From assembly GCF_004006175.1 (NCBI RefSeq), contig NZ_CP033219.1, forward strand, positions 1,054,001 through 1,118,000: 64,000 nt of DNA, written 5' to 3'. Every line of letters begins with the position of its first letter. Positions within the stretch are counted from its first letter, which is position 1. A model generated the notes under the pieces. The model was not told where the DNA came from, did no database searches, and worked only from the letters and a program-made list of their open reading frames with translations. This stretch comes from Parasedimentitalea marina (GTDB taxonomy: Bacteria; Pseudomonadota; Alphaproteobacteria; Rhodobacterales; Rhodobacteraceae). This document shows positions 15,742 through 57,131 of the stretch, one piece after another. A program made the translations under genes and the position numbers.

Positions 15742-16590
15742 TTACTTGACAGCGCCCAGGGTCAGGCCCGCGATAAAGTGCTTTTGCAGCAGAAAGAAGA
15801 TCGCAACCGGCGGCAGGGCTGCCACAATCGATCCGGCTGAAACCAGGTGCCATGCGGCAACCCACTGACCGTTCAGTGAATAGAGGCCGGCGGTAACTGG
15901 CTGGCTTTCGGCGCCCTGGGTCAGCACAGTGGCCCAGAAATAGTCGTTCCAGATGAAAGTGAATATCAACACGGCCAGCGCCGCAATCGCCGGGCGCATC
16001 AGGGGCAGGATGATGAACCAGAAGATCCGCCATTCCTTGACGCCCTCAACCCGCGCCGCCTCGATCAGTTCGACCGGCAGCGAGCGGATGAAATTGCGCA
16101 TGAACAGGGTGCAGAACCCGGTCTGAAAGGCGATGTGAAACAGGGCCAGCCCGGTGATGGTGTTGTAGATACCCATCTGCAGCGTCAGGTCGCGCACCGG
16201 CACCATCAGAATCTGAAAGGGTACAAAGTTGCCCGCGACAAACATGAAGAACACCAGCATGTTGCCTTTGAACTTGTAGACCGCCAGCGCAAAGCCCGAC
16301 ATGCACGACAGTGCCAGCGTGCCGATCACCGTGGGAATGGTCACCCGGACGGAATTCCACATGTAATTGCCCAGCGGCGTATTGGTGAAAATGTCCGAAT
16401 AGTTCTGCACCAGATTGAACGAGGTCGGCCAGCCCCAGTAATTGCCGGCGGTGATGTCTCCGGCCGATCGGATAGAGGTCAGCGCCACCGCAATCAGTGG
16501 CAACAGCCACAGGATCATGGCAAAGGGCAGGGCGGTTTTATACAGCCGTTGCAGCGCAAGTGAGCGGCGTTCAATGGGGGTGGGGAACAT
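15742..16590 (-). CDS. sugar ABC transporter permease (MalG type)
   Basis: A 282-residue inner-membrane permease of the carbohydrate-uptake-1 family with about six transmembrane helices. The EAA loop reads EAARVEGVKEWRIFWFIILP, the contact point for the ATPase. The C terminus (FIAGLTLGAVK) is typical of MalG-like subunits. It sits 3 bases after the partner permease and just upstream of the alpha-galactosidase. The ATPase is encoded on the other side of the divergent regulator. Confidence 0.93.
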   Translation of the reverse strand: MFPTPIERRSLALQRLYKTALPFAMILWLLPLIAVALTSIRSAGDITAGNYWGWPTSFNLVQNYSDIFTNTPLGNYMWNSVRVTIPTVIGTLALSCMSGFALAVYKFKGNMLVFFMFVAGNFVPFQILMVPVRDLTLQMGIYNTITGLALFHIAFQTGFCTLFMRNFIRSLPVELIEAARVEGVKEWRIFWFIILPLMRPAIAALAVLIFTFIWNDYFWATVLTQGAESQPVTAGLYSLNGQWVAAWHLVSAGSIVAALPPVAIFFLLQKHFIAGLTLGAVK

Positions 16591-16593
16591 GGG

Positions 16594-17487
16594 TTAGTGG
16601 CCCTTTTCGTCGCGGTACATCTTCACCAGGAAGACGGTGATGTAGATCATCATGATCAGGAACAGAACAACGGCAATTGCGGCGCCATAGCCCATGCGGA
16701 ACCCGTATTCTGAGAAGGCTTTTTCATACATGTAATAGGCCAGTACCCGCGAACTGCCCCAGGGGCCGCCCGCAGTCATGATCGAGACCAGATCGAAACT
16801 GCGCAGCGCGCCGATGACGGTGACGACGATGGCAATGAATGTGGCCGGTTTCAACTGTGGCAGAATGATATACCACAGCATGTTCCAGCCCTTGGCATTG
16901 TCCAGACGCCCGGCCTCGATCTGTTCGGGGTCAACGGCGTTCAGCCCGGTGATATACAGGATCATGCAATAGGCGGTCTGCGGCCAGAGGCCCGCAAAAA
17001 TAATGCCATAGGTCACCCAGGTCTCATCGCCCAGAATGGTCACCGGCCCCAGGCCAAACCAGCCCAGAATTACGTTTAGCAAGCCAAAGGACGGATCGTA
17101 GAACCAGGTGAATACCAGGCCGACGACCACTTGGCTGATGACAAAAGGAAAGAAGAACAAAGACTTGTACAGGCGCATGCCAAATACAGTTTGGTTCAGG
17201 AATAGCGCAATGAACAGACCCGCAGGGATCGCCAGCATATACAGAACCAGCCATATCACGTTGTTCTTCAGCGAGGTATAGAAGGCCTCATCGTCCATCA
17301 GCTCGACATAGTTGTCCATGCCAACAAAGGTTTTGTCGCCAAGGCCGTCCCAGTCATACAGCGAGATTTGCATCGACTGAAAAATTGGGAAAATCACATA
17401 GAACATGAAAAACAGAATGGCCGGTGCCAGGAACAATACCGGAGCAAGGCTGCGCTGATTGAAACGGGATGCGCGAGACGCTGACAT
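16594..17487 (-). CDS. sugar ABC transporter permease (MalF type)
   Basis: A 297-residue permease, the MalF-like partner of the next gene, with about six transmembrane helices. The EAA-type segment IEAGRLDNAKGWNMLWYIIL is present. The N terminus (RFNQRSLAPVLFLAPAILFFMFYVIFP region) is characteristic of the family. An AGGAT sequence lies before the ATG. It follows the binding-protein gene after a 91-base gap that contains a strong hairpin. Confidence 0.93.
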   Translation of the reverse strand: MSASRASRFNQRSLAPVLFLAPAILFFMFYVIFPIFQSMQISLYDWDGLGDKTFVGMDNYVELMDDEAFYTSLKNNVIWLVLYMLAIPAGLFIALFLNQTVFGMRLYKSLFFFPFVISQVVVGLVFTWFYDPSFGLLNVILGWFGLGPVTILGDETWVTYGIIFAGLWPQTAYCMILYITGLNAVDPEQIEAGRLDNAKGWNMLWYIILPQLKPATFIAIVVTVIGALRSFDLVSIMTAGGPWGSSRVLAYYMYEKAFSEYGFRMGYGAAIAVVLFLIMMIYITVFLVKMYRDEKGH

Positions 17488-17537
17488 AGGTCAATCCTGT
17501 TTGTTTGTGGATGGAGTGAGACTGCCCAAGGCAGGTT

Positions 17538-17559
17538 CGCAGGACCCGAAGGTCCTGCG
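17538..17559 (-). other. UUCG-type hairpin between the binding-protein and permease genes
   Basis: CGCAGGACC and GGTCCTGCG form a perfect nine-base stem with a four-base loop. On the transcribed minus strand the loop reads TTCG, a very stable tetraloop. No T-run follows on that strand; the CTTTTT lies on the other side. Such hairpins often protect the upstream binding-protein message and lower expression of downstream permeases. Confidence 0.6.
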
Positions 17560-17578
17560 CCTTTTTGTGGTGCTGCTC

Positions 17579-18817
17579 TTATTTGTAGACGCGCAGACGT
17601 GTCTTTTCGAGACGGGCCAGAATGGCGTCCAGACGATCAGGCTTGACCATGAACTCCTGAAAACCTTCCATGCCGATCTTGGCCATTTCAGCTGGCGCAT
17701 CCCGGTCAAAGAACTGCGCGATACCGCCGTCTGTTGTCGACAACATGGTATAGCCAGCCTGCAGGAACTTGTCGTCGCCAACGGTCGAGTCCTTGTTGAT
17801 CGGCAACTGACCAAGGACCTCGTTGATCTTGGTCTGCGCTTCCGCTGATGCCAGGAAGGCCAGGAACTTCTTGGCGTCTTCCTTATTGGTGGCGTTTGCC
17901 GGGATGTGCAGCGTATCGGTGGGGGCCTCTTCAGCCAGCGGGACATCAGGGTTGATGACAGGGAACTGGAAGAAACCCAGTTGGTCATCGGTCAGACCTG
18001 CTTCACGCAGGGGGGCTACGGCAAAGTTACCCATGACATACATGGCTGCATCGCCAGCCACCATCGGCGCCAAGGCTTCCTGCCAGGAATACGAGGTGTG
18101 GTTTTCCAGGAAGAAACCGGCGTCGATCAGCTGTTTCCAGTTGTTCATGGTTTCGACAACGCGCGGGTCGGTCCACTCGACCTCACCCTTGGTCAGCGCC
18201 ATGTGGAAGTCATAGCCATTGGTGCGCAGGTTCAGGTAATCAAACACGCCGCCAGCGGTCCACAGATACTTGGTACCGATGGTGATTGGGGTCACGCCCG
18301 CTGCTGTCAGCGTTGCACCCGCTGCCTTGAACTCGTCCCAGTTGGTGGGCACTTCGATGTTATTGGCTTCGAAAATGTCCTTACGATAGTACACGCCCCA
18401 CTGGTAATACGTGTAAGGCACACCCCATTTTTTGCCGTCAATGGTCATCGACCCGGCGGCCGAGGCCAGCGAGTCATTCAGACCATTGTCTTCCCAGACA
18501 TCGCTGACGTCTTCAAATAGGCCAGCGTTGACGTAGGGCAGCATCCGGTTGCCGGCATACCAATTGGCCAGATCCGGTGCATCCGCTGTCAGAAAGTTGC
18601 GGATCGAGGTTTTATAGCCCTCGTGGTCGAACAGGTTCCATTTGACGGTGATGTCCGGATTGGCCGCCTCAAAATCGGCGATCAATTGTTCAAAGGCCGC
18701 CTTTGGGGCCGGATCGGATGTGTCGGTGTTGATCACCAGCTCGCCTGCAAATGCAGATGTCGCAAGGATCGTCGAGGCAGCTAGCGCCGCGATGGTTGTT
18801 TTGAATTTGGTAACCAT
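17579..18817 (-). CDS. extracellular sugar-binding protein of the galactoside ABC transporter
   Basis: A 412-residue periplasmic solute-binding protein of family 1, first gene of the operon. An N-terminal signal peptide ends near AFAGELVIN. The start at 18817 (MVTKFK) is fixed by a GGGAGG Shine-Dalgarno sequence 6 bases upstream; an earlier frame start would destroy that spacing. The body has the family's NWDEFKAAGATLTAAG and AAMYVMGNFA segments. It should deliver alpha- or beta-galactosides to the two downstream permeases. Confidence 0.92.
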   Translation of the reverse strand: MVTKFKTTIAALAASTILATSAFAGELVINTDTSDPAPKAAFEQLIADFEAANPDITVKWNLFDHEGYKTSIRNFLTADAPDLANWYAGNRMLPYVNAGLFEDVSDVWEDNGLNDSLASAAGSMTIDGKKWGVPYTYYQWGVYYRKDIFEANNIEVPTNWDEFKAAGATLTAAGVTPITIGTKYLWTAGGVFDYLNLRTNGYDFHMALTKGEVEWTDPRVVETMNNWKQLIDAGFFLENHTSYSWQEALAPMVAGDAAMYVMGNFAVAPLREAGLTDDQLGFFQFPVINPDVPLAEEAPTDTLHIPANATNKEDAKKFLAFLASAEAQTKINEVLGQLPINKDSTVGDDKFLQAGYTMLSTTDGGIAQFFDRDAPAEMAKIGMEGFQEFMVKPDRLDAILARLEKTRLRVYK

Positions 18818-18855
18818 GATGCCCTCCCAAGGCGGTTTCATTATTCGAAACTTGA

Positions 18856-18870
18856 TTTCACATATTGAAA
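18856..18870. promoter_or_regulatory. candidate IclR-family operator in the divergent promoter region
   Basis: TTTCA and TGAAA flank a five-base centre in the 128-base region between the binding-protein gene and the iclR-type gene. IclR-family proteins bind short AT-rich palindromes of this kind in shared divergent promoters. Only this one clear palindrome was found by eye, and binding is inferred. Confidence 0.4.
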
Positions 18871-18945
18871 ATATAACCGCAACTCGCTATGACTTGTCAA
18901 TGCTTTCGTCCTGCTCGCGGGTCGAAGTTGTGAAAGGAATTGCGA

Positions 18946-19755
18946 ATGGCAGAACGGCAAACAGCAGACGGAACCGTCGGAAAAGCACTGGAGGTGCTTG
19001 ATATGGTGGCAAGTTTTGAACGCCCGGTGCGATTCTCTGAGGTGCTCGAGGGCAGCCCCTATCCCAAAGGAACATTGTACCGACTGTTCCAGACGCTCAC
19101 AAATCAGGGCATGTTGTCCTTTGATCCGGATCGCCAAACATATGGCTTGGGTGTCCGGTTGGTACGACTGGCCCATGCCGCCTGGCAGCAAAGTTCGCTT
19201 GCGCCGATTGCCCGCTCTTATGTGGATGCCCTGTCCGAAACCACCGGTGAGACGGTGCATCTGGCGCAGCTCGACAATGCTCAGGTTCTGTATCTGGACA
19301 AGCGTAACGCCTTGAAGCCAATTGAAATGTATTCACAGGCAGGCAAGGTTGGCCCGGCTTATTGCACCGGTGTTGGCAAGTCGATGCTGGCCTTTTTGGC
19401 CGAGGACGAGGTTGCCCGGGTTATTTCTCAGCAGAGCTTTCACCGTTTCACCGAACACACCCTGACCTCCGAGGCCGAGTTGAGGGCGGATCTGGCCGAT
19501 ATCCGGGCTAAGGGATTCGGAATGGACCGGGAAGAGCACGAACCCGGAATTATCTGCATCGCCGTGCCGATCCTGACGCCACGCGGCAGGGTTCTGGGCG
19601 GGTTATCTGTCACATCAACCACAGCTCAAAAATCACTGGCAGACCTCGCGGCATTGGCGCCGCAGGTTCAGGCCACAGCAAACAGCATCGCGGTCGAGGC
19701 CCAGAACTGGCGCTTTCCCGACCAAGCCACTGACACGACTAGAACGGGGACATAA
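18946..19755 (+). CDS. IclR-family transcriptional regulator of the galactoside genes
   Basis: A 269-residue IclR-family regulator. A winged helix-turn-helix lies around residues 10-70 (KALEVLDMVASFERPVRF..YPKGTLYRLFQTL). The effector domain follows, including the PAYCTGVGKSMLAFL segment typical of the family. The ATG at 18946 follows AAAGGA at the right distance; the open frame begins only two codons earlier with a TTG. It is divergent from the galactoside operon and 3 bases from the transporter ATPase gene. It very probably controls both sides in response to a sugar or pathway intermediate; repressor or activator cannot be told. Confidence 0.9.
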   Translation: MAERQTADGTVGKALEVLDMVASFERPVRFSEVLEGSPYPKGTLYRLFQTLTNQGMLSFDPDRQTYGLGVRLVRLAHAAWQQSSLAPIARSYVDALSETTGETVHLAQLDNAQVLYLDKRNALKPIEMYSQAGKVGPAYCTGVGKSMLAFLAEDEVARVISQQSFHRFTEHTLTSEAELRADLADIRAKGFGMDREEHEPGIICIAVPILTPRGRVLGGLSVTSTTAQKSLADLAALAPQVQATANSIAVEAQNWRFPDQATDTTRTGT

Positions 19756-19758
19756 CAT

Positions 19759-20820
19759 ATGTCGGGACTGACACTAAACAACGTGATCAAGAAATATGGC
19801 GACATTCAGGTGATCCACGGCGTTGACCTGACGATCGAAGACGGTGAATTTTGCGTCTTTGTGGGGCCATCAGGCTGCGGTAAATCCACGCTATTGCGGA
19901 TGGTGGCCGGGCTGGAAGAAACCACTGCCGGACAGATCACAATTGGCGCCCGCGATGTCACCGCCATCGATCCCGCCGAACGCGGCGTGGCCATGGTGTT
20001 CCAGACCTACGCACTTTACCCGCATATGACGGTCGAAGAAAATATGGGCTTCGGCCTGAAAATGACGGGCCACCCCAAGGGGGAGGTTCAGGAAAAGGTC
20101 GCCGCTGCTTCGAAGATCCTGAAACTGGACGATTATCTGTCGCGCAAACCCAAGGCTCTGTCTGGCGGCCAGCGCCAGCGGGTGGCCATCGGCCGCGCCA
20201 TTGTCCGTGGCCCCGAGGTGTTCCTGTTTGACGAGCCCTTGTCCAACCTCGATGCCGAGTTGCGTGTGGATATGCGGATCGAAATCGCCCGGTTGCACAA
20301 GGAAATCGGCGCCACCATGATCTATGTGACCCATGATCAGGTCGAGGCGATGACGCTGGCCGACAAGATTGTTGTGTTGCGTGATGGCCGGATTGAACAG
20401 GTCGGCAGCCCCATGCATCTGTACAAAGATCCGGACAACAAATTCGTGGCCGGTTTCATCGGCTCTCCCAGCATGAACTTTATCGATGGCGTGGTCGAGG
20501 GCGGCAAAGTCCGTGTGCCTGCGTTGGGTGATGCGGTAGTTGCGGCCTCGGTTGTTTTGCCGGGCGAAGGACAGCCGGTCTATGTTGGCCTGCGCCCACA
20601 GCATCTGAACATCACCGAGGGGGACAGCGATATCACACTCGATATCCGCGAGCGTCTGGGTGGTGTTGCTTATGACTACCTGACCGCGCCGGGCGGCGGT
20701 CGCATCACCGTCGAAACCCGTGGCGACGAAGAGATCCCCGAGGGCTGTACGGTCAAGTTGAGCTTTGACGATTCTGATGTGTTGTTCTTTGACAAGACAA
20801 CCGAGCAGCGCCTGCGGTAG
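19759..20820 (+). CDS. sugar ABC transporter ATP-binding protein (MalK/UgpC type)
   Basis: A 353-residue ATPase of the MalK/MsmK/UgpC group. Walker A GPSGCGKST is at 36-44, the signature LSGGQRQR near 134, Walker B VFLFDEP near 155 and a switch His in VTHDQ. A C-terminal OB-fold regulatory domain (YVGLRPQHLNI) follows. It lies 3 bases after the regulator and is the natural partner of the two permeases across the divergent promoter. Such ATPases can serve several importers. Confidence 0.93.
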   Translation: MSGLTLNNVIKKYGDIQVIHGVDLTIEDGEFCVFVGPSGCGKSTLLRMVAGLEETTAGQITIGARDVTAIDPAERGVAMVFQTYALYPHMTVEENMGFGLKMTGHPKGEVQEKVAAASKILKLDDYLSRKPKALSGGQRQRVAIGRAIVRGPEVFLFDEPLSNLDAELRVDMRIEIARLHKEIGATMIYVTHDQVEAMTLADKIVVLRDGRIEQVGSPMHLYKDPDNKFVAGFIGSPSMNFIDGVVEGGKVRVPALGDAVVAASVVLPGEGQPVYVGLRPQHLNITEGDSDITLDIRERLGGVAYDYLTAPGGGRITVETRGDEEIPEGCTVKLSFDDSDVLFFDKTTEQRLR

Positions 20821-20934: not shown

Positions 20935-20977
20935 ATAAATGCCTCATTGTGTCATTCACACAACCGGGGATTGGCAA

Positions 20978-21970
20978 ATGAAGAGCAAATTTTCTATTTC
21001 ACGACGGGCTATGTTGGCCGGAACGGCAGCGCTGGCGCTTATGATGCCCGCCGGGGTCGCCCTGGCAGGAACCGTCAAAGTCGCAGCCATTTACACGCTG
21101 CCCGTCGAACAACAATGGATCAGCCGAATTCATTTGGCGCTGAATGGCGCCAAGGATCGCGGCGAGATTGACTATGTGTTCTCAGAAAACGTCGCCAACA
21201 CCGACTACGAGCGGGTGATGCGCGAATACGCCGAGCAAGGCGTGCAATTGGTGGTGGGCGAGGTCTTCGGTCTGGAACGCGCTGCGCGTAAAGTGGCCGC
21301 GGATTATCCTGAAACCGGGTTCCTGATGGGCTCGTCCTTTGGTCCGGTCGCGCCAAACTTCTCGGTGTTTGACAACTGGATCCACGAGCCAAGCTACCTG
21401 TCTGGAATGGTGGCCGGGGCCAGCACCGAAAGCAACGTGATCGGCATGGTCGGTGGCTATGCCATCCCCGAAGTGAACCGCCTCATGAACGCCTTTATGG
21501 AGGGCGCGCGCGCCACCAACCCCGACGTCAAGTTTCTCGTGAACTTCATCGACAGCTGGTATGATCCGCCCAAAGCCAAAGAAAGCGCCTTTGCGATGAT
21601 GGATGCGGGTGCTGACATCATGTTTGCGGAACGCTTTGGCGTCGCAGATGCTGCGGTTGAACGCGGTGTTAAGGCTGTCGGCAATGTGATTGACACCTCA
21701 GGTGATTATCCCAACACTATTTTGACCTCGGCCCTGTGGCATATGGAACCCACGATCGACCGCGCTGTTGCGGCCGTGGCTGGGGGCACTTTTGAGGCTG
21801 CTGATTATGGCCAATACAGCTTTATGGGCTACGGCGGTGGCTCGCTGGTAGTGGATAAAACGCTGGTGTCTGCCGAGGTGCTATCCCGGGTCCAAGAGAC
21901 CGAAACGTCGATCATGGAAGGCATGTTCCGTGTCAATGTGAACGACGAGCGTCCGGTATCGGATAAGTGA
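20978..21970 (+). CDS. BMP-family ABC transporter substrate-binding protein (nucleoside/nucleobase type)
   Basis: A 330-residue BMP/PnrA-family binding protein. The signal has the twin-arginine-like motif SRRAML followed by a hydrophobic stretch and an ALA cleavage site, so Tat export is possible. The ATG at 20978 has GGGGA upstream; the longer frame adds 13 unlikely residues. Family landmarks are KVAAIYTLPVEQQ, ENVANTDYERVMREYAEQG and a DTSGDYPNTILTS loop. BMP proteins bind nucleosides or bases; the deaminase at the operon end suggests a pyrimidine base. Confidence 0.9.
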   Translation: MKSKFSISRRAMLAGTAALALMMPAGVALAGTVKVAAIYTLPVEQQWISRIHLALNGAKDRGEIDYVFSENVANTDYERVMREYAEQGVQLVVGEVFGLERAARKVAADYPETGFLMGSSFGPVAPNFSVFDNWIHEPSYLSGMVAGASTESNVIGMVGGYAIPEVNRLMNAFMEGARATNPDVKFLVNFIDSWYDPPKAKESAFAMMDAGADIMFAERFGVADAAVERGVKAVGNVIDTSGDYPNTILTSALWHMEPTIDRAVAAVAGGTFEAADYGQYSFMGYGGGSLVVDKTLVSAEVLSRVQETETSIMEGMFRVNVNDERPVSDK

Positions 21971-21988
21971 TTGGTAGACAGTAACCGA

Positions 21989-22051
21989 GGACAGCGCCTG
22001 AGCCTGGGTGGGTGCGAAGCGCCCTCCCGTGGGGAGGGTCGGGCGCTGTCC
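21989..22051 (+). other. long intergenic hairpin between binding-protein and ATPase genes
   Basis: GGACAGCGCC (21989-21998) pairs perfectly with GGCGCTGTCC (22042-22051). Inside it, CCCTCCC (22022-22028) pairs with GGGAGGG (22032-22038), and GCGCCC with GGGCGC offers an alternative pairing. No T-run follows. It probably stabilises the binding-protein message relative to the membrane components. Confidence 0.55.
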
Positions 22052-22097
22052 GGAACGCTATGCGTCCCGGACAAACAAAAAATCGGCTAATAGACCA

Positions 22098-23615
22098 ATG
22101 ACCGTACAAAAAATTCTCTCCTTAAACGCGCTGTCCAAGCGGTTTGGCTCTGTGGTGGCCAATGATGCCGTCAATCTTGAATTGCATCGCGGCGAAGTTC
22201 TGGCCCTGTTGGGTGAAAACGGCGCGGGCAAGACAACGCTGATGAACATGCTGTTTGGCCACTACATGCCCGACGGTGGCAGTATTGATGTGGCGTCACC
22301 AAACGGCGAGATGCAGCCGCTGACCCTCGGCCATCCGCAGGCGGCCTTGTCGGCGGGTATTGGCATGGTGCACCAGCACTTTACCCTGGCGGAAAACCTG
22401 TCAGCGCTGGACAATATCACCCTTGGTTCCGAGCCGCTGTTTTCACTGCGCCGTGACCGGGCGGGCGCGCGCGCTAAGGTGCAGGGGATCATGGATCGCA
22501 CCGGGTTGACTGCGCCACTGGACACGCCGGTTGGCAGGCTGTCGGTGGGCGAACGTCAGCGGGTTGAGATCCTCAAGGCGCTGTACCGCGATGCCCGTAT
22601 TCTGGTGCTGGACGAACCCACCGCCGTGCTGACTCCGCAAGAGGCCGATACCCTGTTTGAAAACATCGGCGCCATGACCCGCGACGGGCTGGCGGTGATC
22701 TTTATCTCGCATAAACTGCGCGAAGTGCTGGCATTCTCTCACCGCATCGCGGTGCTGCGCCACGGTACAAAAGTCGGCGAGATCGCCACCTCGGAGGCGG
22801 ATGAACGGGTCATTGCCCGGATGATGGTGGGCGAGGATACGCCTGCACCAACACGGGACGCGATGACACCCGGCGCACCGGTTCTGACATTGACGGGCCT
22901 TGGCATTCGAGACGCGGCGGCGCGTGACAGTCTGACCGATGTGAACCTGACCGTGCATGCCCATGAAATCCTTGGCATTGCAGGGGTTTCGGGCAACGGT
23001 CAATCGGCGTTGGCAGCTGTTATTTCCGGATTGCGCCGACCAGACAGCGGCAGCATTCAGGTCGACGGCGTTGCTATCCTGAACCCAGATCCCAAAGTCA
23101 TGATCAAAGCTGGCGTAGGCCGCATCCCCGAAGACCGCCACCACGACGGCATTGTCGGCGCCATGTCGGTGGCTGAAAACATGGTCATTGAACGGCTGGA
23201 CGACCCCGCAGTGCAAACCAATGGATTATTGAACCGCAGCGCAATTGAGGCCAACGCTGAAACGCTTAGCCAATCTTATGACGTGCGCGGCCCCGGCATT
23301 ACCGCCCGCGCCCAGCTGTTGTCTGGCGGCAATATCCAAAAACTCATCTTGGCTCGGGTGTTTGAACAAAACGCCCGGCTGATCCTGGCCAACCAACCGA
23401 TCCGAGGCCTCGACATGGGCGCCGCCGCCGAGGTCAGCCGCCGCCTTCTCGAGGCGCGGGCAGCTGGGGCCGGGGTGCTGCTGATATCTGAGGATCTGGA
23501 TGAAATTCTGGGGCTGGCGGACCGCATCATGGTGATCCACGATGGGCAGCTGACCGAAGTTACCAGCCGCAACCGCGAAGACATTGGCCTGAAAATGGCA
23601 GGAGAGCAGATATGA
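22098..23615 (+). CDS. ABC transporter ATP-binding protein with two nucleotide-binding domains (BMP transporter)
   Basis: A 505-residue tandem ATPase. The first domain has a full Walker A (GENGAGKTT), signature LSVGERQR and LVLDEPTAVLT. The second has a degenerate Walker A (GVSGNGQS), an LSGGNIQK signature and a Walker B ending in NQP instead of DEP, as is usual for this family. The ATG at 22098 was chosen because the longer frame adds 30 residues encoded within the intergenic hairpin. It is coupled to the first permease by ATGA. Confidence 0.93.
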   Translation: MTVQKILSLNALSKRFGSVVANDAVNLELHRGEVLALLGENGAGKTTLMNMLFGHYMPDGGSIDVASPNGEMQPLTLGHPQAALSAGIGMVHQHFTLAENLSALDNITLGSEPLFSLRRDRAGARAKVQGIMDRTGLTAPLDTPVGRLSVGERQRVEILKALYRDARILVLDEPTAVLTPQEADTLFENIGAMTRDGLAVIFISHKLREVLAFSHRIAVLRHGTKVGEIATSEADERVIARMMVGEDTPAPTRDAMTPGAPVLTLTGLGIRDAAARDSLTDVNLTVHAHEILGIAGVSGNGQSALAAVISGLRRPDSGSIQVDGVAILNPDPKVMIKAGVGRIPEDRHHDGIVGAMSVAENMVIERLDDPAVQTNGLLNRSAIEANAETLSQSYDVRGPGITARAQLLSGGNIQKLILARVFEQNARLILANQPIRGLDMGAAAEVSRRLLEARAAGAGVLLISEDLDEILGLADRIMVIHDGQLTEVTSRNREDIGLKMAGEQI

Positions 23616-24685
23616 TTCGTATCGAGCCACGCACTGCGCCGGGCCGTTTAATGACGCTGGGCGTGCCGGTCTTGTCGGCGGTGATTGCGCTCGCTCTGGC
23701 CGCTATCCCGTTGGCATTGGCTGGGGCGGATATCACCCTGGCCTACGCCGAGATGGTCAAGGGCGTGTTTGGCTCGGTGTTTGCGTTTTCCGAAATGCTG
23801 ACCCGCGCCACGCCTTTGATGTTCACTGGCCTTGCCGCTGCCTTGGCCTTTCGCGCCAAGCTGTGGAACATCGGCGCCGAGGGGCAGCTGTATCTGGGTG
23901 CCATGGCCGCCGTTGCCATTGGCGCGGGGGCAGTAGACATTCCGGGTATCTTCTTGATCCCGCTAATCATTATCCTGGGCGCCGCCGCTGGGGCGGCTGG
24001 CATGGCGGTGCCGGCGCTGTTGAAAACCCGTTTTGGCGCCGACGAGGTTGTGACGACCCTGTTGCTCAACTTCATCATCCTGATCTTTGTACAGATGATG
24101 TTAGAGGGCGCGTTGAAAGATCCCATGAGCCTGGGCTGGCCGCAGTCTGCTCCGGTGCTGGATCAGGGTATGTTGCCGCAATTGATGCCCCGGATGCGGG
24201 TGCACTCGGGGCTGATTCTGGCGCTGGTGCTGGCCGGCATTGCGCAGTTCATGCTGGCACGATCCGTTTGGGGGTTCCGCCTGCGCGCGGTTGGTGAAAA
24301 CGCCGCTGCTGCGCGTCACGCCGGTATCGGCGTCAACCGCTCGCTGTTTGGTGTCGCGATCCTGTCCGGCGGTCTGGCCGGCCTGGCCGGCGTTAGCGAG
24401 GTTGCGGGGCTAAAGGGCTATCTGACCGCCGACCTGTCGCCCGGCTTTGGCTATACCGGCATCGTTGTTGCCATGCTGGCAGGCCTGTCACCGGTGGGCG
24501 TGGTGATCTCGGCGCTGTTCATCGCATCGGTGTTCGTTGGCGCCGACAGTATGAGCCGCGCTATGGGGGTCTCGTCTTACCTGGCGGATCTGGTGGTCTC
24601 AATGTCATTGCTCTGTGTGCTGATCGGCGGCTTTGTTGCGCGCTATCGCATCACCCGCAGCACGCCAACGGTGGGGGCAGCCTGA
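23612..24685 (+). CDS. ABC transporter permease (BMP nucleoside transporter), subunit 1
   Basis: A 357-residue inner-membrane permease of the branched-chain/BMP superfamily with about ten hydrophobic helices. The LWNIGAEGQLYLGAM and GFGYTGIVVAMLAGLSPVG segments are diagnostic. It overlaps the ATPase gene by ATGA, and its TGA shares a base with the next ATG. With the following gene it forms the heterodimeric channel. Confidence 0.93.
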   Translation: MIRIEPRTAPGRLMTLGVPVLSAVIALALAAIPLALAGADITLAYAEMVKGVFGSVFAFSEMLTRATPLMFTGLAAALAFRAKLWNIGAEGQLYLGAMAAVAIGAGAVDIPGIFLIPLIIILGAAAGAAGMAVPALLKTRFGADEVVTTLLLNFIILIFVQMMLEGALKDPMSLGWPQSAPVLDQGMLPQLMPRMRVHSGLILALVLAGIAQFMLARSVWGFRLRAVGENAAAARHAGIGVNRSLFGVAILSGGLAGLAGVSEVAGLKGYLTADLSPGFGYTGIVVAMLAGLSPVGVVISALFIASVFVGADSMSRAMGVSSYLADLVVSMSLLCVLIGGFVARYRITRSTPTVGAA

Positions 24686-25626
24686 TGGATATTCTGCAAA
24701 TCCTGCTCAGCGAATCGTTCTGGGCCGCCTCGCTGCGCATCGCCACCCCGCTGATCTTTGGCGTGCTCGGCGCGCTGTTGTGCGAAAAATCAGGAGTGCT
24801 GAACCTTGGCATCGAGGGCATCTTTGCCGCCGGGGCCATGTGCGGCTGGATGGCCGTCTGGTTGGGCGCCGGTCTGTGGGGCGGAGTGCTGATTGCCGCC
24901 CTTGCCGGTGCGTTCTTTGGTCTGATCCACGGTATTCTGACGGTGCCGCTGGGCCTGTCGCAACATGTCTCCGGGCTGGGGGTGACCCTGTTTGCCACCT
25001 CGCTGAGCTATTTTACTTATCGCACTGCATTGCCCAATGTATCATCGCCGCCACGGATCGAACCCTTCCGGGCGCTGGATATCCCGCTGCTGTCGGATCT
25101 TCCGTTTCTTGGCCCGGTGGTATTCCAACAAACCGCACTGACCATGCTGGCTCTGGGGCTGGTGGGGCTGGTCTGGTATGTGCTGAACCGCACCGCGCTT
25201 GGCGTGGCTTTGCAGGCGGTGGGCGACAACCCCGACAGTGTCGACGCGCAGGGCCTGTCTGTCTACGGATTGCGCATCGGGGCCGTCATGGCCGGATCGG
25301 CGCTGATGGCGCTGGGAGGCGCGTTTCTGACCATGTCGGCCTTTGATGCGTTTTTCTTTGGCATGGTCAACGGGCGCGGCTGGATTTGCATCGCGCTGGT
25401 GATCTTTGCCAGCTGGAAGCCGGGTAAGGCGCTGCTGGGGGCACTTTTGTTCGGGGCTTTTGATGCGCTGCAAGTTCGCCTGCAGACCGAGGTTGGCGCC
25501 ATGGTGCCGGGGCAGGTATTCTTGATGGCGCCTTATGTGCTGTCGATCTTTGCGCTGGTCATTGCCGCGCGCAAAGCGGAATATCCGCGTGCTTTGCTGA
25601 CCCCTTGGTTCAAAGGCCAAAGGTAA
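24685..25626 (+). CDS. ABC transporter permease (BMP nucleoside transporter), subunit 2
   Basis: A 313-residue partner permease with eight to ten hydrophobic helices. Family segments are LCEKSGVLNLGIEGIFAAGA near the N terminus and GRGWICIALVIFASWKPG in the middle. The start codon shares one base with the previous stop. Downstream lies a 130-base gap containing a palindromic repeat and then the deaminase gene. Confidence 0.93.
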   Translation: MDILQILLSESFWAASLRIATPLIFGVLGALLCEKSGVLNLGIEGIFAAGAMCGWMAVWLGAGLWGGVLIAALAGAFFGLIHGILTVPLGLSQHVSGLGVTLFATSLSYFTYRTALPNVSSPPRIEPFRALDIPLLSDLPFLGPVVFQQTALTMLALGLVGLVWYVLNRTALGVALQAVGDNPDSVDAQGLSVYGLRIGAVMAGSALMALGGAFLTMSAFDAFFFGMVNGRGWICIALVIFASWKPGKALLGALLFGAFDALQVRLQTEVGAMVPGQVFLMAPYVLSIFALVIAARKAEYPRALLTPWFKGQR

Positions 25627-25630
25627 AAAC

Positions 25631-25721
25631 GGGCATTGCCCGACCTTCCCGTCAAACCGAAGGTTTGCCTTTGGCAAAATGCGAAGGCGCTTTGTACCTC
25701 CCCAAGGTCAGGCGCACCCGG
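25631..25721. repeat. palindromic intergenic repeat, diverged copy A
   Basis: This shares its core (GAAGGCGCTTTG, then CTCCCCAAGGTCAGGCGC) with copies near 55262 and 57779. Its arms are GCCCGACCTT (25638-25647) and AAGGTCAGGC (25704-25713). Unlike the other two copies, it holds an inserted small hairpin (CAAACC, GAA, GGTTTG). It lies between the permease and deaminase genes of one operon. Confidence 0.7.
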
Positions 25722-25756
25722 ATGACTAAATACACAAACCCTCATGAGGCACCCAA

Positions 25757-27049
25757 ATGTTCGATCTGATCCTCAAAAACGCCACCCTGCCAGACGGTCG
25801 CACCGGAATGGATATCGCTTGCAAGGGCGGCATGATCGCATCCGTCGAGGCAGATATCTCTGCCGAGGCGCAAGAGGTGATCGACGCCACTGGCTACCTC
25901 GTCTCACCGCCTTTTGTGGACCCACATTTCCACATGGACGCGACCCTGTCGCTGGGCACGCCACGCATGAACACATCGGGCACATTGCTTGAGGGCATCG
26001 CCCTTTGGGGCGAGTTGAAGCCGATCCAAAGCGTTGAAGACATTGTCAGCCGCGCTCTGCGGTACTGTGATCTGGCGGTCTCTATGGGAATCGGGGCCAT
26101 TCGCAGCCACGTGGATGTTTGCGATGATGCACTTACCGGGGTTCAGGCCCTGTTAGAGGTGCGCAAACAAGTGGCGCCCTATCTGGACCTGCAACTGGTG
26201 GCCTTTCCGCAAGATGGCGTGCTGCGCGATGCCACCGCGATGGAGAACCTAATCCGGGCGCTGGACATGGGCGTCGATGTGGTCGGCGGCATCCCGCATT
26301 TTGAACGCACCATGGCAGACGGTGCCGATTCGGTGCGCCAGCTGTGTGAAATTGCTGCAACGCGCGGCTTGATGGTGGACATGCACTGCGACGAAAGCGA
26401 CGATCCGCATAGCCGCCATATCGAAACTTTGGCCTATGAAACGCAGCGCTTAGGACTGCAGGGCAGGGTGGCCGGCTCGCATCTGACCTCGATGCATTCG
26501 ATGGACAACTACTATGTCTCGAAACTGATCCCGCTGATCGCCGAGGCTCAGGTGCACGCCATCCCCAATCCGCTGATCAACATCATGCTGCAGGGGCGTC
26601 ACGACAGCTATCCCAAACGTCGCGGCCAAACCCGGGTGCCGCAACTGCGCGAGGCCGGAATCACGGTTGGCTTTGGCTCGGATTGTGTGATGGACCCGTG
26701 GTACTCGCTGGGGCGCGCCGACATGCTGGATGTGGCCTCGATGGGGCTGCATGTGGGGCAATTGTCCAGCCGCGCCGATATGGCCTGGTGTTTTGAGGCT
26801 GTGACCGAAAACTCGGCCAAGATCATGGGGCTACAGGGTTACGGACTGACCAAGGGCTGTGCGGCCAACATGGTGCTGCTGCAGGCTCAGGACCCGATTG
26901 AGGCCATTCGCCTGCGCGCCACCCGTCTGGCAGTCATCCGCGCTGGCAAGGTGATTGCCCGCACTGCGCCACAGGTCACCGAATTGACGCTACCCGGCAG
27001 GCCGACGCCACTGAACCCGGCCGATTATGCACCAAAGCAGTCCAGTTGA
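25757..27049 (+). CDS. codA: CodA-type amidohydrolase, predicted 5-methylcytosine/cytosine deaminase
   Basis: A 430-residue metal-dependent deaminase closely similar along its length to E. coli cytosine deaminase. Metal ligands are His57, His59 (DPHFHMD), His210 and Asp309; the catalytic Glu213 is in HCDE. The E. coli GHDDVFDPW loop reads GSDCVMDPW here, so the residue matching Asp314 is Cys310. As I recall, CodA homologues lacking that Asp, including one from Rhodobacter sphaeroides, deaminate 5-methylcytosine to thymine. Placed after a BMP transporter, it probably deaminates an imported base. Strict cytosine or isocytosine use is the alternative. Confidence 0.88.
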   Translation: MFDLILKNATLPDGRTGMDIACKGGMIASVEADISAEAQEVIDATGYLVSPPFVDPHFHMDATLSLGTPRMNTSGTLLEGIALWGELKPIQSVEDIVSRALRYCDLAVSMGIGAIRSHVDVCDDALTGVQALLEVRKQVAPYLDLQLVAFPQDGVLRDATAMENLIRALDMGVDVVGGIPHFERTMADGADSVRQLCEIAATRGLMVDMHCDESDDPHSRHIETLAYETQRLGLQGRVAGSHLTSMHSMDNYYVSKLIPLIAEAQVHAIPNPLINIMLQGRHDSYPKRRGQTRVPQLREAGITVGFGSDCVMDPWYSLGRADMLDVASMGLHVGQLSSRADMAWCFEAVTENSAKIMGLQGYGLTKGCAANMVLLQAQDPIEAIRLRATRLAVIRAGKVIARTAPQVTELTLPGRPTPLNPADYAPKQSS

Positions 27050-42985: not shown

Positions 42986-42994
42986 ATAAATTTC

Positions 42995-43195
42995 GTTCCA
43001 CATGGCCGGTCTCCTGACTCGTGGGTCACAGCCAACTTTCCCCTTCCCACCGGACATATGTCCGACAGTGGTTTGGAAAGCCGCTCGCCACTCACAGTCG
43101 CGGGGGCGGTTGAGGTCTCGACGCCGCAATTGGGTCCGCCGTTCCTCATTCCCGTTTCAGTCCTAACGCTCTGCGCCGTACGAACACCATATTCA
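42995..43195 (-). promoter_or_regulatory. cobalamin riboswitch upstream of cbtB-cbtA
   Basis: Read on the minus strand, the leader has the conserved cobalamin-aptamer blocks in order: an AAACGGGAATGAGGAA segment, the B12 box core CCGCCCCCGCGACTGTGAG, a GGGAAGGGG stretch and the 3-prime block GAGTCAGGAGACCGGCC. The distance to the cbtB start is about 45 bases. Binding of adenosylcobalamin should lower cbtB-cbtA expression. The ends are approximate. Confidence 0.92.
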
Positions 43196-43263
43196 GGTAA
43201 TGTGCCTTATCGCATGTTGTCGGGTCAAGTTTGAAACCGACCGTTCAGAGGCGATATTGCGAC

Positions 43264-56755: not shown

Positions 56756-56862
56756 AGGGGCCCGTCTCCTTGGCTTGGCAAAAAGGGTGGGGCCAGAAGA
56801 GGAGCCCGTCACGCAGGATCCCTCAACCGGTTGCGAAACACCCCGTTCGCCCGTTGACTTCG

Positions 56863-57040
56863 TGCGTTGGCAGGTCTCCCGGCTTGCGGAGTCAAAAGGC
56901 GGTTGGCCTTTTTACGGTGCTCTTGCCTTCCCGGCCATAGGCCAGTGGCATCAGAGACCTCTCCGGTCACGGTCGCGGGGGCGGCTGTGCTTGCACCTGG
57001 CAACCCCGGACGGATCACTGGCCACATCACATTCCCTCTT
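56863..57040 (-). promoter_or_regulatory. cobalamin riboswitch upstream of DUF1636-cobW-cobN
   Basis: On the minus strand the leader shows, in order, CCAGGTGC, the B12-box core CCGCCCCCGCGACCGTGACC, a GCCACTGGCC stem side, GGGAAGGC and the 3-prime block AAGCCGGGAGACCTGCC. The aptamer ends about 105 bases before the DUF1636 start, leaving room for an expression platform. It should repress the cobW-cobN-cobG-cobH-cobI-cobJ operon when B12 is abundant. cobO diverges on the other strand. The ends are approximate. Confidence 0.92.
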
Positions 57041-57131
57041 CGCCTGTCAAAAAACAGGAACCAACAAAACCCCCTTGCGTCATCGCCCATGTCCTTGTCA
57101 AGTCATAGCTGGAATCAGCAGGAGACACGCC

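Follow-up and report, generated by a model that had tools for sequence, protein, structure and literature searches.

A BMP-type importer and a CodA-type deaminase with cysteine at the Asp314 position: a probable uptake and deamination unit for cytosine-like bases in Parasedimentitalea marina

Genes of the importer and the deaminase

Five genes lie on the forward strand at 20939-27049 of the window, by which we mean the whole stretch of 64,000 nucleotides that was analysed. The first of these (20939..21970) encodes a BMP-family (PnrA-like) periplasmic substrate-binding protein of 343 amino acids (PF02608, 125.3 bits), whose two best matches among solved chains are AtzT (6pi5) and 3s99. Its true start may be the in-frame ATG at 20978 (M14), which stands before the residues SKFSISRRAML, a twin-arginine-like signal. 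The following gene (22008..23615) encodes an importer ATPase of 535 amino acids with two ABC domains, matched by PF00005 in two stretches and by NF047930 at 431 bits, below the cut-off of 670. Two permease genes complete the set, one of 357 amino acids (23612..24685; PF02653, 124.5 bits) and one of 313 amino acids (24685..25626; PF02653, 103.9 bits). A PF02608 binding protein, a two-domain ATPase and two PF02653 permeases make up a BMP-type ABC importer, and a complete importer of this type upstream of the deaminase on the same strand, as described in the initial annotation, is indeed what is found at 20939-25626 (+).

We also considered the 'putative B6 ABC transporter' of NCBIfam (NF047927 to NF047930) as a name for these proteins. 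The B6 models are the best or near-best NCBIfam models for the importer proteins, yet all four scores fall under the curated cut-offs (90.5 against 400, 431.2 against 670, 192.4 against 400 and 189.5 against 465), and the name was rejected.

The fifth gene (25757..27049, +) encodes a predicted CodA-type cytosine/5-methylcytosine deaminase of 430 amino acids. Among NCBIfam models it is matched best by NF005748 (PRK07572, cytosine deaminase), where its 784.7 bits lie well above the cut-off of 438. This match places the whole protein among the CodA-type cytosine deaminases of the amidohydrolase superfamily. A BLASTP comparison with CodA of E. coli K-12 gives 174 identical residues out of 407 (43%). 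The metal and catalytic set is complete, with His61, His63, His214, Glu217, His246 and Asp313 of CodA corresponding to His57, His59, His210, Glu213, His242 and Asp309, and Gln152 aligns with CodA Gln156. No terminator-like site was found on the + strand in the 130-base gap between the importer and the deaminase. In one relative, locus L019, the deaminase gene nearly abuts that of the last permease.

The region just before this unit (15742-20820) holds two divergent groups of genes: those of a sugar-type ABC importer (permeases and a binding protein) on the - strand, and those for a UgpC-like ATPase and an IclR-type regulator on the + strand.

The residue opposite CodA Asp314

CodA residues 313-314 lie opposite Asp309 and Cys310 of the deaminase (codons GAT and TGT, 26681..26686, +) with no gap nearby, both in a phmmer alignment to 1k6w and in a BLASTP alignment to K-12 CodA (FGsDcVmDPWY against FGhDdVfDPWY). 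The TGT codon of Cys310 occupies 26684-26686, and the local codons read ttt ggc tcg gat tgt gtg atg gac ccg tgg. The initial annotation had named an open reading frame at 25757-27049 (+) with His57, His59, His210, Glu213, Asp309 and Cys310, had called the protein close to E. coli CodA and had put the cysteine at the Asp314 position. All of these residues are where it placed them, the identity and the NF005748 score agree with the likeness to CodA, and the gap-free alignments settle the position of the cysteine in its favour.

This position is of interest for substrate choice. A passage of PMC6186785 describes CodA as essentially unable to deaminate 5-methylcytosine, reports that an Asp to Ala change at this site confers the activity, and gives Ser as the residue here in the Klebsiella 5-methylcytosine deaminase, in a numbering one higher. 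A table in PMC4580623 uses CodA structures with D314S, D314G and D314A as test cases for specificity redesign. The solved Klebsiella chain (4r7w) reads Asp-Ser at the Asp313-Asp314 position. With Cys310, the deaminase is a CodA homologue in which the Asp314 position is not Asp, as in the bacterial 5-methylcytosine deaminases.

The known systems can be set beside the present one in further respects. E. coli CodA shares all of the metal residues and most of the substrate residues, and differs in having Asp314 and in being paired with the permease CodB. The Klebsiella enzyme (Kpn00632) has the same CodA-type fold and metal site and likewise lacks Asp at the Asp314-equivalent, although it carries Ser where the deaminase carries Cys. 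A close plasmid relative, 40% identical to the deaminase, lies beside codB and a PucR-type regulator, without a BMP importer.

How common is the cysteine? It is present in 80 of 80 GTDB relatives (68-92% identity), a biased sample, since DCVMDPWY was one of the six search patterns used. A search of 292 genomes of the order with the whole protein gave matches in 104 at E <= 1e-40. The residue was read in 76 of these, and the 28 left out include most matches near 30% identity. Among the 76 there are 73 with Asp-Cys, one with Asp-Ser (G117, whose protein is about 41% identical), one with Asn-Asn (G247, a distant protein at 28%) and one without a letter at the site (G133), because the deaminase gene there is in two pieces. 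Cys is the rule in this deaminase subfamily, and the idea that Cys310 is an unusual substitution is ruled out by the order genomes together with the biased GTDB sample. The interrupted gene of G133, at locus L154, appears as two adjoining pieces that match residues 1-236 and 236-427 of the query.

Bacterial 5-methylcytosine deaminases include Kpn00632, Rsp0341 and NCgl0075. Rsp0341 of Rhodobacter (Cereibacter) sphaeroides is reported to convert 5-methylcytosine to thymine (Hitchcock et al. 2014, Biochemistry 53:7426). A protein of Rhodobacter sp. AKP1 (P0268) is 65% identical to the deaminase and likewise has Asp-Cys, and the protein at locus L148 (genome G094) is 99% identical to P0268. We take G094 to be R. 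sphaeroides 2.4.1, in which case the L148 and P0268 proteins are probably Rsp0341 or a near copy. The deaminase is a probable ortholog of Rsp0341, judging by identity, the Asp-Cys pair and the same order of BMP protein, ATPase, permease, permease and deaminase genes at L148. Activity on 5-methylcytosine would therefore be expected, to the extent that our assignment of L148 holds.

A tree of 54 proteins adds some detail to this picture. A fully supported branch parts 51 Cys-type proteins from CodA, the Klebsiella-type protein and the G117 protein. Within the Cys-type group the deaminase and the Cereibacter/Rhodobacter proteins, and with them the presumed Rsp0341, fall into different sub-clades, while the L019 protein belongs to the deaminase's own ten-row clade. 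The bootstrap of this tree is not fully settled, three of its rows are on long branches and the root is a midpoint root only. The deaminase is of an already described type; the initial observation about it is right, and the biology is mostly known.

Conservation of the pairing and neighbouring genes

We examined whether importer and deaminase travel together in the same 292 order genomes, counting a deaminase at >= 349 bits, dropping 11 genomes with weaker matches only, and counting a BMP protein at E <= 1e-60. The deaminase is found in 93/292 genomes and the BMP protein in 89/292. Both are present in 87, and in 86 of these 87 they lie within 9 kb of each other on one strand, with the BMP gene upstream in 61 and downstream in 25. 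Six genomes have the deaminase only, two the BMP protein only and 197 neither. Fisher's test on this co-occurrence gives 3e-64, a value to be read with the relatedness of the genomes in mind, as they are not independent. The two genomes with a BMP protein and no deaminase of this type are G198 and G139.

The individual loci give a similar, if less uniform, picture. All four importer genes lie upstream of the deaminase in 42 of 80 GTDB loci and downstream in 8; a further 8 loci have some of them and 22 have none, although 9 of these 22 are cut by a contig end. The corresponding numbers for 60 loci of the order are 38 upstream, 14 downstream, 2 weak or partial and 6 without importer genes (1 cut by a contig end). 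The pairing is conserved, given same-strand neighbours in 86 of 87 genomes and the same order at L148, and the co-occurrence together with the locus survey rules out that it is private to this genome. The transporter-deaminase linkage proposed in the initial annotation is thus near-obligate in the order sample. A limited literature search found no paper on a BMP transporter-deaminase pairing, and none for RSP_0341.

Neighbouring genes can provide further hints of function. We surveyed nine context genes in 148 loci (80 from GTDB, 60 of the order and 8 plasmid records), and pyrimidine genes were found near the deaminase in eight. These belong to two unrelated routes, with reductive catabolism in three loci and uracil catabolism or salvage in five. 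In L019 the genes for PreT, PreA, a carbamoylase and a dihydropyrimidinase directly follow the deaminase on the same strand; L042 has PreT and PreA on the deaminase strand, and L036 has PreT on that strand, at a contig end. A further locus, L135, was not counted, as it has only a distant carbamoylase on the opposite strand. The gene for uracil phosphoribosyltransferase (UPRT) is present in L073, L077, L079, L177 and L194, URC4 in L077, L177 and L194, and URC1 in L077 and L194. The whole importer is also found in L019, L177 and L194, and L036 has one permease, which is all that its contig end allows; in the remaining four (L042, L073, L077 and L079) the locus contains no importer.

URC is a uracil-catabolism route, and uracil is the product of cytosine. 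URC and UPRT use uracil and not thymine, whereas the reductive pyrimidine pathway takes thymine too. The URC and UPRT neighbours, which handle uracil, therefore suggest that cytosine is among the natural substrates of the relatives concerned. Overall, the neighbours fit a pyrimidine base and point to cytosine as much as to 5-methylcytosine.

One plasmid deserves a separate mention. In L194 (Azospirillum argentinense plasmid AbAZ39_p4) the genes for GTP cyclohydrolase II, URC4/urg3 and upp directly precede the BMP importer and the deaminase, an arrangement that links the uracil route to the importer-deaminase unit.

An amidase gene is found in or near the unit in 23/148 loci, often between the BMP protein and ATPase genes (e.g. 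at 4009-5457 of L061). Its substrate may be a product with an opened ring, or something related.

Probable substrates of the importer and the enzyme

The deaminase can be placed in the metabolism of its host, whose genome has 5.08 Mb. A reductive pyrimidine cluster lies about 0.5 Mb from the importer-deaminase unit and contains PreA (724 bits, cut-off 335), dihydropyrimidinase (607 bits, cut-off 393) and a carbamoylase-family protein (TIGR01879, 400 bits, cut-off 204). It further holds a glutamate-synthase-small-subunit-like protein in the place of PreT (best model below cut-off), a RutR-like regulator (also below cut-off) and an ABC transporter with an NMT1-type binding protein. UPRT scores above its cut-off elsewhere in the genome, and a thymidine-phosphorylase match falls below (522 of 570.7). 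The host genome has no RutA above cut-off, no PF02133 (NCS1) permease and no second CodA-like match at E <= 1e-3. As the only such match, the deaminase may simply be the host's cytosine deaminase.

A BMP importer specific for pyrimidines would be the part of this system that has been explored least, and no ligand data were found for the BMP protein. The best available comparison is with AtzT. In the passages of PMC6834077 on this protein, purines and triazines are the good ligands: guanine is bound at 0.11 uM and adenine at 2.5 uM, whereas the values for thymine and cytosine are 620 uM and 800 uM. The pocket described there is made up of Tyr45, Ser97, Phe98, Glu165, Trp194, Asn218 and Asn220. 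Phe98, Glu165 and Trp194 are kept in the BMP protein as Phe110, Glu178 and Trp207, whereas Ser97, Asn218 and Asn220 of the guanine-preferring AtzT are replaced by Val109, Glu231 and Phe233; the full set of pocket residues of a guanine binder like AtzT is not present here. The Tyr45 side of the pocket is uncertain, since Tyr45 aligns to Ile61, with Trp60 adjacent.

These replacements are widespread. The full importer gene set is present in 102 loci, of which 76 have a BMP protein resembling the one described here (>= 54% identity, upstream) and 26 have another type (22 downstream, 4 upstream). At the Asn218 and Asn220 positions the former have Glu and Phe in 73 of 73 aligned rows (three are gapped), and all 26 proteins of the latter type have Glu and Ile. 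Judged from these residues, the pocket would appear to bind a ring through edge contacts other than those of the guanine binder, which does not in itself name the ligand.

We think it fairly likely that the five genes at 20939-27049 form a unit for pyrimidine-base uptake and deamination, with cytosine and 5-methylcytosine probably both natural substrates. The BMP protein would capture a cytosine-type base in the periplasm, and the two permeases and the ATPase would import it. The CodA-like enzyme would then convert cytosine to uracil and, as its orthology suggests, 5-methylcytosine to thymine; its Cys310 takes the place of Asp314, the residue by which CodA bars 5-methyl substrates. Both products, uracil and thymine, could enter the reductive pyrimidine pathway, whose genes are present in the separate host cluster and whose flux we infer. 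In short, the unit probably imports cytosine-like bases including the methylated form and removes the amino group for use as food, with cytosine as the likelier bulk substrate. Several observations count against this reading: no more than 8/148 loci have pyrimidine genes in the neighbourhood of the deaminase, half of them without the importer; the importer is missing from 22 of the 80 GTDB loci, with the contig ends noted above; AtzT, a relative of the BMP protein, is a purine binder with little affinity for cytosine or thymine; and the amidase is unexplained by a plain base-deamination route.

Other readings share some of this evidence. The initial annotation had suggested a salvage system for 5-methylcytosine from decaying DNA; in a system dedicated to that base, cytosine would be a minor substrate. 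The cysteine in 73 of 76 genomes of the sampled subfamily, the probable orthology to a published 5-methylcytosine deaminase and the thymine-taking pathway beside the deaminase in L019, L042 and partly L036 would all suit such a system. However, in 5/148 loci the neighbours of the deaminase or of its importer are UPRT and URC genes, which use uracil and not thymine, and the deaminase is the single CodA-like match in the host. Dedication to the methylated base is not favoured and seems unlikely to us. What survives of the proposal is the predicted 5-methylcytosine activity, with Cys at the Asp314 position here and in P0268 and Ser in the Klebsiella enzyme; a role of 5-methylcytosine as the main substrate is not supported.

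The importer could also serve for purines or nucleosides, in keeping with other BMP proteins, and have no more than a loose functional tie to the deaminase. The PnrA-like description of PF02608 and the affinities of AtzT lean this way. The near-obligate partnership with a pyrimidine deaminase, the three replaced pocket residues, two of them constant in the aligned relatives, and the absence of any nucleosidase gene seen in the unit make this distinctly improbable. More improbable again is an enzyme whose main substrate is a different cyclic amidine, for example creatinine or isocytosine. On its side are the label 'cytosine/creatinine deaminase' that close relatives carry in some source databases and the amidase in 23/148 loci; against it stand the pyrimidine genes in eight loci and the substrate-site residues held in common with CodA.

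Returning to cytosine-type bases as the imported ligands, a broader proposal can be made, which we hold tentatively and put a little short of likely. The BMP protein may represent a new ligand class, a high-affinity importer of cytosine-type bases including 5-methylcytosine that replaces CodB-type permeases across many Alphaproteobacteria together with the Cys-type deaminase, so that cytosine and its epigenetic form, taken up from decaying DNA, are both burned via the reductive pyrimidine pathway. If 5-methylcytosine is indeed imported and deaminated, many Alphaproteobacteria would recycle an epigenetic base from dead cells, the deaminase being present in nearly a third of the order genomes, and, with the co-conserved importer, a pyrimidine would join the ligands of the BMP family. 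The question is cheap to test, given the pairing and a tractable organism, R. sphaeroides, that probably has the same unit.

Further along the window, two cobalamin riboswitches (RF00174) are found at 42987-43206 (-) and 56852-57080 (-), with 100 and 97.7 bits. Both lie upstream of same-strand cobalamin genes (CbtA, CobF, and CobW with CobN), with CobB nearby.
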